Shown here piece by piece: positions 4,402 through 57,015 of a stretch of DNA of 64,000 nucleotides. Location: NCBI GenBank assembly GCA_947475875.1, contig CANJME010000015.1:1-64000 (forward strand), read 5' to 3'. Source of the stretch: Caulobacteraceae bacterium (GTDB lineage Bacteria; Pseudomonadota; Alphaproteobacteria; Caulobacterales; Caulobacteraceae). The notes beneath the pieces were generated by a model, which ran no database searches, had not been told where the DNA came from, and was given only the letters and a program-made list of their open reading frames with translations. Positions within the stretch are counted from its first letter, which is position 1; each line of letters starts with the position of its first letter. The position numbers and the translations under genes were made by a program.

Positions 4402-5637
4402 ATGGCGATCGATTTTGAAATTCCGGCTGCGGCCAAGGCTGTGCGCGAACGCGTGCGCAAGTGGGTCCACGACGAATGCCGGCCCGCCGAGGAAAAGCTG
4501 CTGGCCGGGGCCGACTACAAGACCACGCTGGGTGAGCTCCGCGCCAAGGCCCGCGCCCAGGGCCTGTGGTGCCCCTTCATCCCCAAGGAACACGGCGGCA
4601 TGGGTCTCGGACCCCTCGCCAATGCCCTGGTGCAGATGGAGCTCGGCGAGAGTTACCTCGGCGCCCTCTCCATGAACACGCAAGGCCCCGACGACGCCAC
4701 CATGCTCACCCTGCTGCAGCACGGCACCGAGGATCAGAAGGAGCGGTTCCTCAAACCCCTGCTGAACGGCGAAAAGCGCATCTGCTATTCGATGACCGAG
4801 AAGGCGGCCGGCGCCGACGCCACCGGCATGCAGACAATGGCCGTACGCAAGGGCAACGACTCCTGGCTGCTGAACGGCGAAAAGTGGTTCTCATCGGCCG
4901 CATCCGTCGCCGACATCGCGCTGGTCATGGCCAAGACCAACCCGGACGCGCCGCGCCACAAGCAGTTTTCCACCTTCCTCGTCGAGCTGCCCAACCCCGG
5001 CTACCGCATCAAGCGCGACATCCCGACCATGGCCATCGAGGGCCCGCTGACCCACATCCTCGGCGGCGGCCATTCCGAGATCGAGATCAAGGACCTGGAA
5101 GTCCCGGCCGAGAACCTCTTGGGCGGCGAGGGCGAAGGCTTCAACATGGGCCAGCACCGGCTGGCCTACGGGCGGTTGCGCCATGGCATGCACAATGTCG
5201 CCATGGCCCAGCGGGCGCTCGATATGGCGACGGCCCATGTGACGAACCGTACGACCTTCGGGACCAAACTCGACCAGCGGCAGGCCGTGCAGTTCATGCT
5301 CGCCGAGTGCGCCAGCCAGCTCTACATCGCCCGGCTGATGCTGCTGCACATCGCCTACAAGGCGGAAAACGGCCTCGATCTTCGCCAGGAAAACGGCATC
5401 GCCAAGGTCTATCTGGCCAATATGGTCCACCACGTGGTCGACACCGCCATCCAGCTGCACGGCGCCCTGGGCTATAGCCAGGATACCCCGCTGGCCATGT
5501 GGTACACCCACATCCGCTCCCAGCGCCTGGTCGACGGGCCAGACGAAGTCCACCGCTGGACCACGGGCCGCAATGTCATCAAGGCGTTCAAGGAAACCGG
5601 CACAACGGCCGGCGCCTGTGGTGGGGATATGCTCTAA
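4402..5637 (+). CDS. Acyl-CoA dehydrogenase family protein
   Basis: A 411-residue flavoenzyme with the acyl-CoA dehydrogenase fold: N-terminal helical domain, central beta domain (CYSMTEKAAGADATGMQT, then LNGEKWFSSAASVADIALVMAKT) and C-terminal helical domain with the FAD/CoA motifs RTTFGTKLDQRQAVQFMLAE and QLHGALGYSQDTPLAMW. It would oxidise an acyl-CoA to the enoyl-CoA and pass electrons to ETF. The chain-length class is not determinable. A DUF559 element begins on the base after its stop codon. Confidence 0.9.
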   Translation: MAIDFEIPAAAKAVRERVRKWVHDECRPAEEKLLAGADYKTTLGELRAKARAQGLWCPFIPKEHGGMGLGPLANALVQMELGESYLGALSMNTQGPDDATMLTLLQHGTEDQKERFLKPLLNGEKRICYSMTEKAAGADATGMQTMAVRKGNDSWLLNGEKWFSSAASVADIALVMAKTNPDAPRHKQFSTFLVELPNPGYRIKRDIPTMAIEGPLTHILGGGHSEIEIKDLEVPAENLLGGEGEGFNMGQHRLAYGRLRHGMHNVAMAQRALDMATAHVTNRTTFGTKLDQRQAVQFMLAECASQLYIARLMLLHIAYKAENGLDLRQENGIAKVYLANMVHHVVDTAIQLHGALGYSQDTPLAMWYTHIRSQRLVDGPDEVHRWTTGRNVIKAFKETGTTAGACGGDML

Positions 5638-6192
5638 TCCTCTCCCCGCAAAGCGGGGAGAGGCAAGGTGAGGGGCGGCGCGTCCGCGCCGCGACAAGTG
5701 TTGCTATTTTGTTCTCATTTCTCTAATGTTCTATTGAGGATTTCAGAGGGGATGGCAAATGGCGCATTCAATTCTAACACCTCGGGCCCGCGAACTCCGC
5801 ACCCATGACACCCGCGCTGAAGCCCGTCTCTGGCAGGCTCTGCGCAACCGCAACCTTGGCGGATGGAAATGGAAACGACAGGTTCCTCGTGGGCCTTACA
5901 TCGTCGACTTTCTCTGTGTAGAGGCCGGCCTAATCGTTGAGGTGGACGGCGCCACGCACAACGAAGACCACGAAATCGATTATGACGAGCGCCGCACGGC
6001 CTACCTGAACACTCTTGGCCTGAAGGTCTTGCGTGTCACTAACACAGGCGTGTTTGAAGACACTAACAGCATCTGTCTGTGGATCCTTGAGGCGTGCGAA
6101 CTTTCAAGAGGGCTAGGCGCCGCAATCGATATGAAGCGCGCCGCGGACGCGGCGCCCCTCACCCAGCCTCTCCCCACTTCGTGGTGAGAGGA
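5638..6192. mobile_element. DUF559 element A: nuclease gene between 55-bp hairpin inverted repeats
   Basis: The left arm (5638-5692) and right arm (6138-6192) are near-perfect inverted repeats of 55 bp. Each contains hairpin CCTCTCCCCGC/GCGGGGAGAGG, core GGTGAGGGG and an inner hairpin around CGCGTCCGCG. Several differences between the arms fall in the hairpins or their loops. The only gene inside is a DUF559 protein. The unit starts right after the acyl-CoA dehydrogenase stop and ends five bases before the gcrA stop codon, filling a convergent gap. I found no target-site duplication by eye. Mobility is inferred from the second, differently sequenced unit at 54877-55426. Confidence 0.65.
5759..6187 (+). 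CDS. DUF559 domain protein (Vsr/PD-(D/E)XK endonuclease-like), element A
   Basis: A 142-residue protein of the DUF559/COG2852 family, related to very-short-patch-repair and restriction endonuclease folds. The family pattern is clear: TPRARELRTHDTRAEARLW at the N-terminus, KRQVPRGPYIVDFLC, LIVEVDGATH (the Asp/Glu motif of the nuclease core) and YDERRTAYLNTLGLKVLRV. The last dozen or so residues (AADAAPLTQPLPTSW) are encoded by the element's right arm, and the stop lies inside it. Base composition is visibly lower in GC than the neighbours. Catalysis and role are unproven. Confidence 0.85.
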   Translation: MAHSILTPRARELRTHDTRAEARLWQALRNRNLGGWKWKRQVPRGPYIVDFLCVEAGLIVEVDGATHNEDHEIDYDERRTAYLNTLGLKVLRVTNTGVFEDTNSICLWILEACELSRGLGAAIDMKRAADAAPLTQPLPTSW

Positions 6193-6196
6193 GGGA

Positions 6197-6691
6197 TTAG
6201 ATATAGCGCCGCAGGCTGCGGGCCAGGTCGTTGGCGCTGGAGCGTTTGCGCGACTGGGCCGGCTGGTAGGCGACCTGGGCGTGGTGCTGGCAGTAGGGGA
6301 TGTCGCCGTCGGTGCGCTTGCCGCAGAAGGTGAAGGTGTCGGCGGACGGATCGCCGATCGGCCACTTGCACATGTGGGCGCCGAGCGTCAGCACCGTCGC
6401 TGATCCCGGCTCCTCGTCGCGGAGGATCGGCCGGGGTTCGGCGCGGACAATTTCGCGCGGTTCCATGCGGCGCGGGGCCGACGGAACGGAGGGGCGCGGC
6501 GGCCGGGGCGTCTTGAAGCTGACCCGCGCGGGCTGGCTTGGCGTCGCGCGGCCCGACAGGCCCAGGCGGTGCACCTTGCCGATCACGGCGTTGCGGGTCA
6601 CCCCGCCGAGCTGTTTGGCGATCTGGCTGGCGGACAGGCCGTCGAGCCAGAGCTTCTTCAGCAATTCAACCCGTTCATCAGTCCAGCCCAT
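6197..6691 (-). CDS. gcrA: Cell-cycle regulator GcrA
   Basis: A 164-residue GcrA homologue. The N-terminal DNA-binding domain has the family signature WTDERVELLKKLWLDGLSA, SQIAKQLGGVTRNAVIGKV and HRLGLSGRA. A Pro/Arg-rich linker follows, then a C-terminal region ending CGKRTDGDIPYCQHHAQVAY. In Caulobacter, GcrA binds sigma-70 and activates promoters at CcrM-methylated GANTC sites, controlling S-phase genes. Here it is a single gene on the minus strand, converging on element A. A DnaA-box-like and GANTC site lie upstream. Confidence 0.95.
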   Translation of the reverse strand: MGWTDERVELLKKLWLDGLSASQIAKQLGGVTRNAVIGKVHRLGLSGRATPSQPARVSFKTPRPPRPSVPSAPRRMEPREIVRAEPRPILRDEEPGSATVLTLGAHMCKWPIGDPSADTFTFCGKRTDGDIPYCQHHAQVAYQPAQSRKRSSANDLARSLRRYI

Positions 6692-24209: not shown

Positions 24210-24916
24210 CGAATATCTTTCGTGGCGGCGGCGTTCAGAAAGGCCGTCAGGTCGTTGGTGCGGTGGTGAACGAAGGCGGCCTCAGATTCAAGAGCGTTCG
24301 GGCCCACCAGCACGGTGGTCATACCCAGATCATGGGCCGGCTCGAGGTTGCGGGAGCTGTCTTCGAAGAAGCAGGTGGCGGGCCCTGACAAGGCGTGATG
24401 CCGCATCATGCGGGCGAAGGTGGCCAGGTCCGGCTTGGGCACATAGTTTGCCATCTCGATGTGGAAGAGGTCGTCAAACAGGTCCTCGATTCCCAGGCGC
24501 GCCAGCACCCGCTCGACATGTTTCAGATCGGCGTTGGTGAAGATCAGCCGCCGGCCCGGCAGGCGCTGCAAGGCCAGCCGCAGATCGGGGTCGGGCGGAA
24601 TGACGTCGATCGGCACATCATGGACTTCGTCGATAAAGGTCTGGGGATCGATGGCGTGTGTCTTCATCAGGCCCGCCAATGTCGTGCCGTGTTCGCGCAG
24701 GTATTGTTTCTGGACGGCGAAGGCCTTGTCGTGCGGCAGGCCGGTGATGCGGGCCACGACGCCGGTCATCCTGCGCTCGATCGCCGCCATGAACCCGGAA
24801 TTGTGCGGGTAGAGCGTGTTGTCGAGATCAAACAGCCAGTCGTCAATGTGACGAAGGTCACTCCTCCCCCCCAGGGGGAGGGGGACCGCCGAAGGCGGTG
24901 GAGGGGGCCTCGTCAC
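24206..24916 (-). CDS. HAD-family pyrimidine 5'-nucleotidase-like phosphatase
   Basis: A 236-residue HAD hydrolase. Motif [16 protein letters not shown], motif II IFTNAD, motif III Lys in NYVPKPD and motif [10 protein letters not shown]. Members dephosphorylate nucleotides or similar metabolites. The start is GTG 24916, overlapping the argB stop (GTGA). Residues about 4-18 ([15 protein letters not shown]) are encoded by a hairpin repeat arm at 24863-24907, and no ATG, GTG or TTG lies between the repeat and motif I. The protein therefore seems to have acquired a Pro-rich N-terminus. Confidence 0.88.
24863..24907. repeat. Solo arm of the DUF559-element type, inside a coding start
   Basis: Hairpin CCTCCCCCC/GGGGGAGG, then GGGACCGCCGAAGGCGGTGG and AGGGG, closely matching one 51-bp arm of element B (54877-54927). 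There is no partner arm nearby. It lies in frame in the first 18 codons of the phosphatase gene. Confidence 0.85.
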
Positions 24917-52982: not shown

Positions 52983-54857
52983 ATGATGGGTAGAGAAGCA
53001 GTTCAGACCGTATCGGTATCGACGCACCAGGCGCGCTTTGCGAGCACGCGGCCGGCGGCCAAGGTGGAGCTCAAGCTGGTGCGCAAGGTCGAGGTCGACC
53101 GCACGCGTGACGCCCTGCTCACCGACTTCGGCAAGAAGACCCTGGAAGATCGCTATCTGCTGCCCGGCGAGAGCTATCAGGACATGTTCGCCCGCGTCGC
53201 GACCGCCTTCGCCGACGATGCCGATCACGCCCAGCGCCTGTACGACTATGTCTCAAAACTGTGGTTCATGCCGGCCACGCCGGTGCTGTCGAACGGCGGC
53301 GCCGACCGCGGCCTGCCGATCAGTTGTTTCCTCAATTCGGTCGGCGACAGCCTCGAAGACATCGTTGGCACCTGGAACGAAAACGTGTGGCTGGCCTCCA
53401 ACGGCGGCGGCATCGGCACCTATTGGGGCGGCGTCCGCTCCATCGGCGAGAAGGTCAAGGGCTCGGGCCAGACCAGCGGCATCATCCCCTTCATCCGGGT
53501 GATGGACTCGCTGACGCTCGCCATCAGCCAGGGCTCGCTGCGCCGCGGCTCGGCGGCGGTATATCTCGACATCCACCATCCCGAGATCGAGGAATTCCTC
53601 GAAATCCGCAAACCCTCGGGCGACTTCAACCGCAAGTCCCTGAACCTGCACCACGGCCTGTCGGTGACCGACGAGTTCATGGAAGCCGTCCGCGACGGCG
53701 CCTTGTTTGACCTGCGCTCGCCAAAGACCGGCGAGTCGGTCAAGCAGGTCGACGCCCGCACCCTCTGGCAGAAAATCCTCGAGATCCGCCTGCAGACCGG
53801 CGAGCCGTACCTGATCTTCTCGGACACCGTGAACCGGGCCATGCCTGAGCACCAGCGCGCGCTGGGCCTGAAGGTCCGCCAGTCGAACCTGTGCTCGGAA
53901 ATCATGCTGCCGACCGGGACCGACCACACCGGCACGGACCGCACCGCCGTTTGCTGCCTGTCGTCGGTCAACGCCGAAACCTTCCTGGAATGGCGCGACC
54001 ATCCGACTTTCGTCGAGGACGTGATGCGCTTCCTCGACAATGTGCTGCAGGACTTCATCGACCGGGCCCCGGCGGCCATGGGGGCCGCATCCTACGCCGC
54101 GATCCGTGAGCGCTCGGTCGGCCTGGGGCTGATGGGTTTCCACTCTTTCCTGCAGGCCCAGAACGTGCCGTTCGAATCCGCTCTGGCCAAGAGCTGGAAC
54201 ATGCGGCTTTTCAAGCATCTGCGCCGCGAGGCCGACAAGGCTTCCCGCACCCTCGCCGCTGAGCGCGGGCCCTGCCCGGACGCCGAAGAGAACGGCGTCA
54301 TGGAGCGGTTCAGCCACAAGCTCGCCATCGCCCCGACCGCCTCGATCAGCATCATCTGCGGCGGCACATCCGCCGGCATTGAGCCGATCCCGGCCAATAT
54401 CTATACCCACAAGACCCTCTCGGGCTCGTTCGCGGTGAAGAACCCGTATCTGGAAAAACTGCTCGAAACCAAGGGCAAGAACGACGACTTCACCTGGCGC
54501 TCGATCCTCGAACACGAGGGCTCGGTGATGCACCTTGATTGCCTGACCCAGGACGAGAAAGACGTCTACAAGACTGCCTTCGAACTCGACCAGCGCTGGG
54601 TGGTGGAACTGGCCGCCGACCGCACCCCGGAAATCTGCCAGTCCCAGTCGCTCAACATCTTCCTGCCGGGCGATGTCGATAAGTGGGACCTGCACATGCT
54701 GCACTACCAGGCCTGGGAACGCGGCGTGAAAAGCCTCTACTACCTGCGCTCAAAGTCCGTACAGCGCGCCGCCTTCGCCGGCGGCGAAGACGCCCCGATC
54801 GTGGCGGCCATGGACACGCCGAAAACCGACTACGAAGAGTGTCTCGCCTGCCAGTAG
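52983..54857 (+). CDS. nrdA: Ribonucleoside-diphosphate reductase alpha subunit
   Basis: A 624-residue class I reductase large subunit without the N-terminal ATP-cone. Catalytic features: Ser-Cys pair ISCFLNSVGDSLEDI, the NLCSEI motif with the radical-site Cys-x-Glu, PTASISIICGG, and the C-terminal Tyr pair SLYYLRS and thiol tail ECLACQ. It reduces ribonucleotides to deoxyribonucleotides. nrdB is not in this window; the DUF559 element B lies 19 bp downstream. Confidence 0.93.
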   Translation: MMGREAVQTVSVSTHQARFASTRPAAKVELKLVRKVEVDRTRDALLTDFGKKTLEDRYLLPGESYQDMFARVATAFADDADHAQRLYDYVSKLWFMPATPVLSNGGADRGLPISCFLNSVGDSLEDIVGTWNENVWLASNGGGIGTYWGGVRSIGEKVKGSGQTSGIIPFIRVMDSLTLAISQGSLRRGSAAVYLDIHHPEIEEFLEIRKPSGDFNRKSLNLHHGLSVTDEFMEAVRDGALFDLRSPKTGESVKQVDARTLWQKILEIRLQTGEPYLIFSDTVNRAMPEHQRALGLKVRQSNLCSEIMLPTGTDHTGTDRTAVCCLSSVNAETFLEWRDHPTFVEDVMRFLDNVLQDFIDRAPAAMGAASYAAIRERSVGLGLMGFHSFLQAQNVPFESALAKSWNMRLFKHLRREADKASRTLAAERGPCPDAEENGVMERFSHKLAIAPTASISIICGGTSAGIEPIPANIYTHKTLSGSFAVKNPYLEKLLETKGKNDDFTWRSILEHEGSVMHLDCLTQDEKDVYKTAFELDQRWVVELAADRTPEICQSQSLNIFLPGDVDKWDLHMLHYQAWERGVKSLYYLRSKSVQRAAFAGGEDAPIVAAMDTPKTDYEECLACQ

Positions 54858-55333
54858 GAAAGTAGCAGCGGCTTCCAAAACACCTCCCCGTCATACGGGG
54901 GAGGGGGACCGCGAAGCGGTGGAGGGGCAAACGCCCGCACGAGCCCCTCCCGCCTCGCAATCATCGCCGACGCAAGCTTGAGCGCCCGCTCGGCCATCTC
55001 GTCCGGCCGCTCCATAACCCAACGCGCCGGAATCCGAACCACCCGCACCCCCTGATCGCGCACCCAGGCGTCACGCCGCGCATCGTACTGAGGTTCGGCC
55101 CCGAGGTAGTGCCCCTCGCCATCAATCTCGATCGCCAGCCGCGCCGGCGCACAGAAGAAATCCAGGATGTACGGCCCGAACGGATGCTGGCGGCGGAACT
55201 TGGGTTTGCCGGGTTCGCGGCCGCGAAAGCGCTCCCAGAGATAGACCTCGGGCTTCGACATCCTTTTGCGAAGGGATCGAGCGCGGGTGACGACTGTGGA
55301 GCGCGGGGACACGAAAGAACAAAAACAGAACAT
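54830..55333 (-). CDS. DUF559 domain protein (Vsr/PD-(D/E)XK endonuclease-like), element B
   Basis: About 167 residues from ATG 55333; an internal ATG at 55261 would drop part of the domain. Family pattern: TRARSLRKRMSKPEVYLWER, KFRRQHPFGPYILDFFC, LAIEIDGEGH and YDARRDAWVRDQGVRVVRI, parallel to the protein of element A. The last residues run through the element's left arm and end antisense to the nrdA 3' end, so this copy has no stop inside the element. Catalysis is unproven. Confidence 0.8.
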   Translation of the reverse strand: MFCFCSFVSPRSTVVTRARSLRKRMSKPEVYLWERFRGREPGKPKFRRQHPFGPYILDFFCAPARLAIEIDGEGHYLGAEPQYDARRDAWVRDQGVRVVRIPARWVMERPDEMAERALKLASAMIARREGLVRAFAPPPLRGPPPPYDGEVFWKPLLLSYWQARHSS

Positions 55334-55426
55334 TGTTCTTTTGGCAAGACTGGATGGGGCTGTGCGAGCGGCGACCCCTCCACCGCTTCGCGGTCCCCCT
55401 CCCCGGCCAAGCCGGGGAGGTGTTTT
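54877..55426. mobile_element. DUF559 element B: nuclease gene between 51-52 bp hairpin inverted repeats
   Basis: The left arm (54877-54927) and right arm (55375-55426) are inverted: AAAACACCTCCCCG, hairpin, GGGACCGCGAAGCGGTGG and AGGGG in each. Only the hairpin loops differ much. The unit (550 bp) sits between nrdA and the M28 gene, which converge, ending five bases before the M28 stop codon. Element A is 555 bp with different arm sequences but the same plan. Confidence 0.65.
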
Positions 55427-55431
55427 CGGCG

Positions 55432-57015
55432 CTAGCCCCCGCGCCCGCCTCTGGCCGGAGCAGCCCCACCCCTCGCCGGCGCCGCGCCCCCCCGCGCCGG
55501 AGCGCCGGCCGCCGCCGGGGGCGCAGGCGGGTTGACGCTGGCCGCCGGCGCCCCCGCCACCGCATCGATGAAGTAGCGGTAGAAGTTCGCCGCCCGGGTC
55601 AGGCCTTCGGGCGAGATGGTCGAATAAACGTCGCCGCTGGTGTGATAGTAGGGCCCCGAGTGGATGCCCTGGACGCGCGCCACGTTCAGCGGCGCATAGC
55701 CGCCGAGGTCGCCGGGCACGCTGTTGGTGATCTCGCCGCCATAGGTGTAGCCGTAACGCGCAGCGCCGGCCTTCAGCGTATCCACCAGGAACGGCGCCAT
55801 GTTGGAAACACCAACATTCTTGGGCTCCTCGGTCGGGTCGACGCGCCAGGGATCGACGCGGAACTGGAACTGGGCGACGTGCTCGAGATTGAGCACCAGG
55901 ATCACCCTGGAAAGCTTGCCCTGGTTCATGCGCACCAGGTTGGTGGCCCCGTTCATGCCGCCCGAGTGGTGACCGGCTGAGCCCACGAAGATCAAGGTGC
56001 GCTTGGGCTTGGGCCCCTTGCCATAGTGGCGGGCGAGCGCGAGCGCGACGGCCACGCCATCGCCGTTGTCGCCGGCCCCGTCGAACCAGCTGTCGAGGTG
56101 CGCATTGATGATGATCGCTTCGTCGGAGTCGCCCGGGATCATGCCGATGACGTTGTCGGCCTTGAGGCCCGTAGCGGTGTCGGAATCGAGGCTGAGCTTC
56201 GCCTTCAGCGAGCCGGCCGGCGCCTTTTCCAGCACGGCCTTGAGGAAGGCGCCGTCGGCGCCGCCGAGATTGAACGAGGGCCGCCCGCGGGCTGCGAAGT
56301 CGTAGACGTGCATGTTGCCCGGCTGGTCGATCCAGTTGAACACCGCCACGGCCCCGGCCTGTTCCAGCGCCTGGGTCGACTGAACGATCTTGCTGCGATC
56401 CGAATAGGCGCCGGTCGTGGGGTGCGAACGCTGGATGGCGATCTTGCCCTTGACGTCGACGCTGACGGCTGCGCCGGCGTCGCCCGCATAGACGACCTGC
56501 GCCGTCAGCGGCGTCGGGATCGACGAGCCCGAGGTCGGCATGGCCGATTTCAGGACGATGTCCTTGGAGCCTGCGCCATAGGCCGCATCGGCCAGGACGC
56601 GCACCTCCCAGCTCTTGGGCCGCCAGAAGGCGGTGGTCCCCTCGAAGGTCTGCACTTCCACGGTCTGGACGCCCGCCTTGCGAAGTTCGCCTGCGAACCA
56701 CTCGGCGGTCTTGATCTCTGAGGGGTAGCCCGAGATGCGGCCCCAGAACTGGCTGGTCTTTTCCATCTCGTCGGAGAATTGCGTCACGCGCAGCAAGTCG
56801 CGCTGGATGCGTTTGCCGGCGAATTCCGGATCCAGCGTCTCGCCCGCCGGGATCACGGCCCTGGGCGTGGCGCGCGCGGCCTTGGCGACATCCTGCGGCG
56901 GGTTCGAAAGCCCCGGCGGCGGCTTGATCCCAAACCAGGCCACGGGCGCCGCGATCGCGGCCGCGCCGGTGAGCGTCAGGGCCAGACCAAAGCCGATGAT
57001 GGTGTGGCGTTTCAT
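55432..57015 (-). CDS. M28-like exported peptidase, C-terminal Gly/Ala/Arg-rich tail
   Basis: 527 residues with a signal peptide (to about residue 23), a PA-like insertion domain and a C-terminal M28 domain: IINAHLDSWFDGAGDNGDG (metal His and bridging Asp) and HTSGDVYSTI (last metal His). Where M28 enzymes have a Glu-Glu pair (SxEExG), this one has VGSAGHHSGG. The tail repeats the unit AAPARGG. It may be an inactive or altered relative of the aminopeptidase/carboxypeptidase family. Convergent with nrdA. Confidence 0.85.
   Translation of the reverse strand: MKRHTIIGFGLALTLTGAAAIAAPVAWFGIKPPPGLSNPPQDVAKAARATPRAVIPAGETLDPEFAGKRIQRDLLRVTQFSDEMEKTSQFWGRISGYPSEIKTAEWFAGELRKAGVQTVEVQTFEGTTAFWRPKSWEVRVLADAAYGAGSKDIVLKSAMPTSGSSIPTPLTAQVVYAGDAGAAVSVDVKGKIAIQRSHPTTGAYSDRSKIVQSTQALEQAGAVAVFNWIDQPGNMHVYDFAARGRPSFNLGGADGAFLKAVLEKAPAGSLKAKLSLDSDTATGLKADNVIGMIPGDSDEAIIINAHLDSWFDGAGDNGDGVAVALALARHYGKGPKPKRTLIFVGSAGHHSGGMNGATNLVRMNQGKLSRVILVLNLEHVAQFQFRVDPWRVDPTEEPKNVGVSNMAPFLVDTLKAGAARYGYTYGGEITNSVPGDLGGYAPLNVARVQGIHSGPYYHTSGDVYSTISPEGLTRAANFYRYFIDAVAGAPAASVNPPAPPAAAGAPARGGAAPARGGAAPARGGRGG

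Follow-up and report, generated by a model that had tools for sequence, protein, structure and literature searches.

What kind of DNA is a small nuclease gene enclosed by inverted hairpin repeats: a unit that spreads itself, a gene copied into repeats that were already there, or a host gene with repeats around it by accident? The question is raised by element B, which occupies positions 54877-55426 (~550 bp) of the window, by which we mean the whole 64-kb stretch of DNA analysed here, and which consists of a DUF559 gene enclosed by inverted hairpin arms. We consider it likely that B is a self-spreading unit, composed of a single gene together with two target sequences of its own, the binding and cutting of the arms and the copying of the unit being inferred.

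Element B and its sister unit

Two convergent genes, ending at 54857 and 55432 (Table 1), enclose element B, which sits in the gap between their stop codons. A preliminary description of this DNA had placed the DUF559 gene inside inverted arms of 51-52 bp; indeed, the gene is enclosed by mutually inverted arms of 52 bp each. Two inverted matches were detected, one of 61 nt at 80% (54898-54958/55344-55404) and one of 31 nt at 74% (54877-54907/55396-55426), and a single gapped match of the arms gives 61 identities over 71 nt. From its outer end each arm reads AAAACA, an outer hairpin (CCTCCCC...GGGGAGG), a GGGACC-type tag, an inner hairpin with a GAA loop and finally GGTGGAGGGG. Both arms fold into the outer and the inner hairpin, with shuffled sequences folding equally well in 3/200 cases for the left arm and 0/200 for the right. 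When the arm core was searched for across the window with up to three mismatches, the two matches found were exactly the two arms of B (0.00 expected by chance).

Table 1. Coordinates of elements A and B and of associated features within the window
Feature	Positions	Strand	Remarks
Element A, sister unit (561 bp)	5637..6197		arms 5638-5693 / 6137-6192
Element A DUF559 gene	5759..6187	+	stop inside its own 3' arm
Diverged solo B-type arm	24860..24906		84% identity
Left host gene, ribonucleotide reductase large chain	52983..54857	+	convergent with M28 peptidase
Element B DUF559 gene	54830..55312	-	domain 54980-55291; start inferred, GTG 55312 or ATG 55333
Element B left arm	54877..54928	+	outer hairpin about 54883-54904, tag, inner hairpin, tag
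B-type motif GGGAGGGGGACC-hairpin-GGTGGAGGGG, left	54899-54927
LexA-type (SOS) box GTTC-N7-GTTC	55317..55331	-	immediately 5' of the inferred GTG start
B-type motif, right	55375-55403	-
Element B right arm	55375..55426	-	inverted version of the left-arm motif
Right host gene, M28 peptidase	55432..57015	-	convergent with ribonucleotide reductase large chain

The encoded protein matches PF04480 (DUF559) with an E-value of 7.5e-24 and 84.1 bits, against a curated cut-off of 20.6, and the match covers almost the whole domain (positions 4-105 of 109); the conserved E, Q, D, E-x-D-G, H, D and R residues, acidic E55 and D57 of the B domain among them, are all intact when compared with 68 and with 23 relatives. 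Its AlphaFold2 model (pLDDT 88, pTM 0.82) has NGO0050 (3hrl, E 5.2e-6) and the homing endonuclease I-Bth0305I (3r3p, E 4.4e-5) as best Foldseek matches, followed more weakly by PvuRts1I, mitoribosomal proteins and E. coli Vsr (1vsr, E 0.09), and a profile search of the protein agrees, returning NGO0050, PvuRts1I and I-Bth0305I (the last at E 0.003). The B protein models as a small PD-(D/E)XK nuclease with a Vsr fold, of the Vsr/I-Bth0305I type; its cleavage of DNA is inferred. PADLOC holds no defence model for it and offers only a marginal one for the protein of element A (DpdF, E 8.6e-5), so that a defence role was set aside. A search of IMG/VR bearing on phage origin gave no match, a weak test with one peptide pattern only, and a search of Rfam gave two matches, both far under the gathering threshold.

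The reading frame crosses the left arm and stops at 54830-54832, 45 nt past the unit end and within the 3' end of the neighbouring gene, much as the preliminary description had reported. Its further suggestion, that this copy is possibly decayed at its end, was rejected because in 73/107 units the stop falls within the 3' arm or past it.

The box upstream of the gene has the GTTC-N7-GTTC consensus given for C. crescentus in PMC12907096, and a LexA-type box also lies upstream in the third DUF559 unit of the same genome. Within the family it is found upstream of 13/82 units versus downstream of 1/82, with 3/492 random windows and 0/106 control flanks containing one; outside the family it is rare (1/42 other loci), which counts against our main reading. 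According to the same source, induction of the SOS response in C. crescentus brings with it the DUF559 protein VsrA, and cells that lack a cytosine methylase, and hence ScmA methylation, require VsrA for that response (PMC12907096); on these data, one member of the family, if not more, probably acts on cellular DNA. Together with the Vsr-like fold, this supports the rival view that the B protein is a host enzyme of very short patch repair, the role put forward for VsrA, with the arms as incidental REP sequences. The main text of that study, as far as it is available, contains no occurrence of "palindrom-" or "transpos-" (PMC12907096), and the findings below on arms and copies are ones that a repair enzyme would have to accommodate.

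The window holds a sister unit, element A, and the preliminary description had likened the two in insertion context, rightly, as each sits in a gap between convergent genes. It had also ascribed the same arm plan to both. The succession of outer and inner hairpin does recur in A, in arms of unrelated sequence (A-B arm similarity 0.21), but the GAA inner loop belongs to B, the loops of A being different. PF04480 has exactly three matches in this genome, namely A, B and a third on contig C28 outside the window, and the genome-wide check that the preliminary description had proposed turned out in its favour: all three genes carry inverted arms, each pair with its own sequence, around proteins that are 36-38% identical to each other. 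The third unit (L002 1334-2091) stands, as judged by eye, in a BIME-like cluster with four more arm copies in both orientations.

Arms across the family and their match to the nuclease

The arm score of a locus is that of the best inverted match obtained when the 350 bp to the left of the DUF559 domain are compared with the 350 bp to its right; a score of at least 16 was required. With no locus counted twice, 119/144 distinct DUF559 loci carry arms: 51/55 in one set, 54/60 in a second drawn mostly from multi-copy genomes, and 14/29 among phylum-wide best-scoring loci, the remaining 15/29 best-scoring genes across the phylum being without inverted arms. Shifted windows of the same geometry on the same DNA pass at 2/294, 0/238 and 1/116, and ParE genes, toxins of toxin-antitoxin pairs from Caulobacteraceae genomes, at 0/27, a comparison that supports the earlier judgement that chance is unlikely. 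Y1_Tnp loci, meant as a positive control, carry arms at only 3/26, and the arm score is therefore no general REPtron detector; perhaps, as we infer, this low figure reflects shorter RAYT repeats along with other Y1 proteins in the sample. The median unit length is 526 bp (107 units with a score of at least 18), and direct arm matches of at least 16 accompany the inverted ones at 25/55 loci.

These counts depend on how loci were chosen. In L015-44 and L069-98 each genome is represented by its best-scoring locus; L099-158 were hand-picked among the listed matches, mostly from multi-copy genomes; and L240-259 are the top 20 B-like matches, by which choice the class at least 50% identical to B is enriched and includes B itself. 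L240 is the same locus as L045, and L244 the same as L047, the duplicates being excluded from the motif-flank and stop-position counts, and L069-98 were left out of the B-motif flank count. Loci at contig edges were dropped (2/57; then 6, 1, 0, 3 and 4 in five further groups; and 3/30 GxxExxY loci).

Arm-bearing loci include Planctomycetes, Chloroflexi, Myxococcota and Bacteroidia (taxa as given in the records, most of them MAGs). On plasmids, 6/10 loci chosen from 31 records have arms, and inverted arms are absent from the other 4/10, in A. brasilense and A. argentinense. These four Azospirillum loci (L351-L354) represent one DUF559 place common to seven replicons, adjoining a gene that is labelled prfA in Klebsiella matches; a stretch lying immediately upstream of the L353 and L354 genes recurs, dispersed, on other Azospirillum plasmids. 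No empty site was obtained there, as all seven records covering at least 80% of the region retain the DUF559 gene, and further comparisons yielded none either. Short-armed DUF559 genes lie within operons on Sphingomonas parapaucimobilis plasmids (L360, sufB-DUF559-sufC; L355, pnt operon), 1-2 nt from the following gene. The ycjD gene of E. coli has no inverted arms (score 8.0); in K-12 (L239 2540-3340) two CCCTC/GAGGG palindromes are seen by eye on its 3' side and none at its 5' end, perhaps a remnant of a DUF559-type unit.

The arms also occur dispersed through the genomes. Among 149 Caulobacteraceae genomes, 110 contain exact copies of the B-type motif, 1,821 sites in all with 14 of them in the genome of B, and the reversed pattern has none. 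Genomes with a B-like gene (E <= 1e-18; n = 86) have a median of 12.5 sites, compared with 1 in the 28 genomes with another DUF559 gene and 0 in the 35 without any, a difference reached by 0/5000 label shuffles within genera. The association has exceptions: 6/35 genomes without DUF559 carry 10-36 sites, 10/86 with a B-like gene carry none, and genus g22 is reversed, with a median of 14.5 sites in genomes lacking the B-like gene (n=4) versus 9 in those having it (n=18).

Among 124 of 150 listed sites, 355/360 variable cells of the inner stem are paired, with A-T, G-C and C-G all occurring at one position; the inner loop is GNA in 119/124 and its closing pair C-G in 117/124. Pairing in the outer stem is weaker (160/196 cells, in a fixed register broken by indels). 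C(GNA)G loops form DNA mini-hairpins of unusual stability. Such a loop would fit recognition of folded single-stranded DNA, for which there are no binding data.

Close pairs of B-type sites take B's orientation in 14/19 cases, eleven of them spanning 113-138 bp and three 493-507 bp. The three longer pairs enclose a listed DUF559 match, and ten of the eleven shorter ones are whole two-arm elements with short variable spacers. One further pair about 495 bp apart (C15:81.9-82.4 kb) was considered as a gene-less unit and rejected; a DUF559 frame is missing from it, and the two arms appear to be independent of each other.

Does each nuclease have its own arm? The preliminary description had asked whether arms and genes agree in their relationships, and within genomes they do. 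Arms of at least 18 are present in 58/68 units, and in the 15 genomes having at least two of these units (85 pairs) protein identity and arm similarity are correlated with a Spearman coefficient of 0.81, which 3/5000 within-genome permutations reach. Mean arm similarity is 0.82 above 60% protein identity and 0.25 at 35-45%, and the corresponding values between genomes are nearly equal (0.79 and 0.25). Specifically, the B motif flanks 16/31 DUF559 genes whose identity to B is 50% or more (counting B itself), as opposed to 0/91 others; 8 of those 16 have it on both sides in the expected orientation. It was not found at the other 15/31 close relatives, and it also occurs in the opposite orientation at 5/31. 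Genomes of genes below 50% can nonetheless abound in B-type arms (102 sites in G003). The G-rich arm tags are fixed, and among the tested DUF559 genes only B's own clade uses that arm. Judged from sequence comparison, then, arm type goes with the nuclease and not with the host. Such a pattern could also be obtained by plain linked inheritance; it speaks against the gene landing in any host repeats.

These results bear on two of the alternatives. If the hairpins were bidirectional terminators gathering in convergent gaps, and small genes simply fell among them, the position of A and B would be accounted for; against this passive account stand the ParE and shifted-window controls and the units inside the Sphingomonas suf and pnt operons, and the nuclease-specific arm type within one genome already contradicts it, leaving it scarcely credible. 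The repair-enzyme explanation, for its part, leaves unexplained the clade-matched arms at both ends, and likewise the gene-less doublets, the presence of up to 13 DUF559 copies per genome and the copies of whole units at unrelated sites described next; we regard it as improbable.

Unit copies, shared sites and an empty site

Whole units at different sites of one genome are 71-93% identical in 25 pairs; the 400-bp flanks of 24 of these score at most 18.5 against each other, the one remaining pair having one common flank. In genus g22, furthermore, one query unit aligns with copies in many places, the match running almost exactly from one arm to the other.

The site of the g22 unit L101 varies among relatives: G141 holds the unit, G055 and G443 have a pair of arms that encloses no gene and is of another type, G444 has a CGTC-like pair, and G137 and G463 have no arm (by eye). 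The G444 occupant (L262, G444:C1:973961-974191) consists of inverted CGTCATTCCCGC-like repeats resembling CGTC REPs. The orthologous site of B in the relative G015 is likewise occupied, by a GxxExxY (TIGR04256) gene between different inverted arms (score 14.5, under the cut-off; C10:64960-65492, L220 2158-2700). Among GxxExxY genes of the Caulobacteraceae set (L290-L319), 20/27 have arms of at least 16, compared with 0/108 shifted windows; these arms are ACGAAGG-type repeats, and the genome of B has six GxxExxY matches. These genes may form a second system of small genes that are associated with repeats.

For element A, G015 provides a clean empty site. There its flanks are contiguous with a single TA, part of the overlapping stop codons of a convergent acyl-CoA dehydrogenase gene and gcrA, and no arm whatsoever is present. 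In the window this TA, common to the two overlapping stops, is the insertion point of A and is doubled around it, and the ends of A restore both stop codons, as read from the sequences. The duplication was seen for A alone, a single case; no target duplication was found by eye around B or the g22 units inspected.

It is on these sites that a homing-like process has to be weighed, in which the nuclease would cut pre-existing dispersed arms or arm pairs and repair of the double-strand break would copy the gene in, the arms being targets and not transposon ends. Two observations lend it some weight: besides a DUF559 relative, the nearest solved fold is that of the homing endonuclease I-Bth0305I, and the gene-less pairs at the L101 site in G055 and G443 have a left end that coincides by eye (TGATCCCTCTC). 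However, these pairs are of a different arm type and therefore are not cognate empty targets, G137 and G463 show no arm there, and A's empty site offers TA only. Because that site lacks an arm, we prefer transposition-like insertion over homing, which we consider unlikely without dismissing it.

A REPtron-like plan with another enzyme

The best reading, drawn by analogy, is that B works like the REPtron of a RAYT and its REPs with an unrelated enzyme, cutting and copying being inferred. In both, one nuclease gene lies between inverted palindromic repeats, the repeats are dispersed in the genome and also form gene-less inverted doublets, and enzyme and repeat go together (for RAYTs, PMC8266576). 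REPtrons (TnpA_REP/RAYT with REP/REPIN) differ in their enzyme, an HUH Y1 transposase, whereas that of B has a PD-(D/E)XK Vsr-like fold; PF01797 (HUH Y1) has no matches in the genome of B, the gene of B being PF04480, and the GTAG tag is absent from the B arms, which read AAAACACCTCCCC...GGTGGAGGGG. As neither the Y1 HUH enzyme nor the GTAG tag is met, we do not call B a REPtron.

Other systems share single traits with B. I-Bth0305I, an EDxHD homing endonuclease, shares the fold, but carries the PDB name "mobile intron protein", whereas the gene of B sits between hairpin arms. C. crescentus VsrA, NGO0050 and E. coli YcjD are DUF559 proteins or close relatives, YcjD differing from B in having palindromes on one side only. 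The CGTC-tagged REPs of alphaproteobacteria resemble the B arms in being palindromic and abundant in the class, and a 2013 survey has them predominate there with no dedicated transposase reported (PMC3733652); the arms of B lack the CGTC tag, and a CGTC-like pair appears only as the alternative occupant in G444. GxxExxY has in common with B a small gene, inverted arms and the very gap it fills in G015, and differs in protein family and in arm type.

How might such a unit spread? In the B copy, the nuclease would be expressed from the putative LexA-type (SOS) promoter and would recognise the folded arm, as a single-stranded or extruded hairpin, through its paired stem, GNA loop and tags. It would cut at the arm ends, after which host repair may copy or insert the piece between the arms at another place. 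Full units would in this way spread the gene, with gene-less inverted doublets and solo arms as the non-autonomous majority, standing to them as REPINs do to RAYTs. Binding and cutting of its own arms by the protein, and the way of copying, remain inferences. Among the observations that count against this reading are the 15/29 phylum-wide genes without arms and the genomes that carry arms but no DUF559 gene.

The plan of a gene with matched repeats is already known; the enzyme class and the repeats are not. In a full-text literature search, which left subscription journals mostly uncovered and did not cover bioRxiv itself, a connection between DUF559 and repeats of this kind did not come up in any paper. 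On balance we incline to the wider proposal that Vsr-fold DUF559 nucleases are the missing mobilisers of palindromic repeats without a GTAG tag, a large class. They would stand beside RAYT/REPIN as an independent counterpart without an HUH enzyme, present in Alphaproteobacteria, Planctomycetes, Chloroflexi and Myxococcota, cutting hairpins specifically and in some units under SOS control, and GxxExxY may be a second system.

Palindromic repeats without a known mobilising enzyme are scattered through many bacterial genomes, and the DUF559 nuclease is a candidate enzyme for an orphan repeat class other than the CGTC REPs. A unit of ~550 bp and its gene-less derivatives, spread across many bacterial genomes, point to an overlooked kind of mobile DNA, of which one small genome holds the matched repeat, the gene and the gene-less derivatives, with a fold that is biochemically tractable. 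If our reading is true, the DUF559 family, including YcjD and VsrA, would have a role other than the repair role proposed in 2026 (PMC12907096), and recognition of hairpin DNA by a Vsr-type enzyme would become directly testable.
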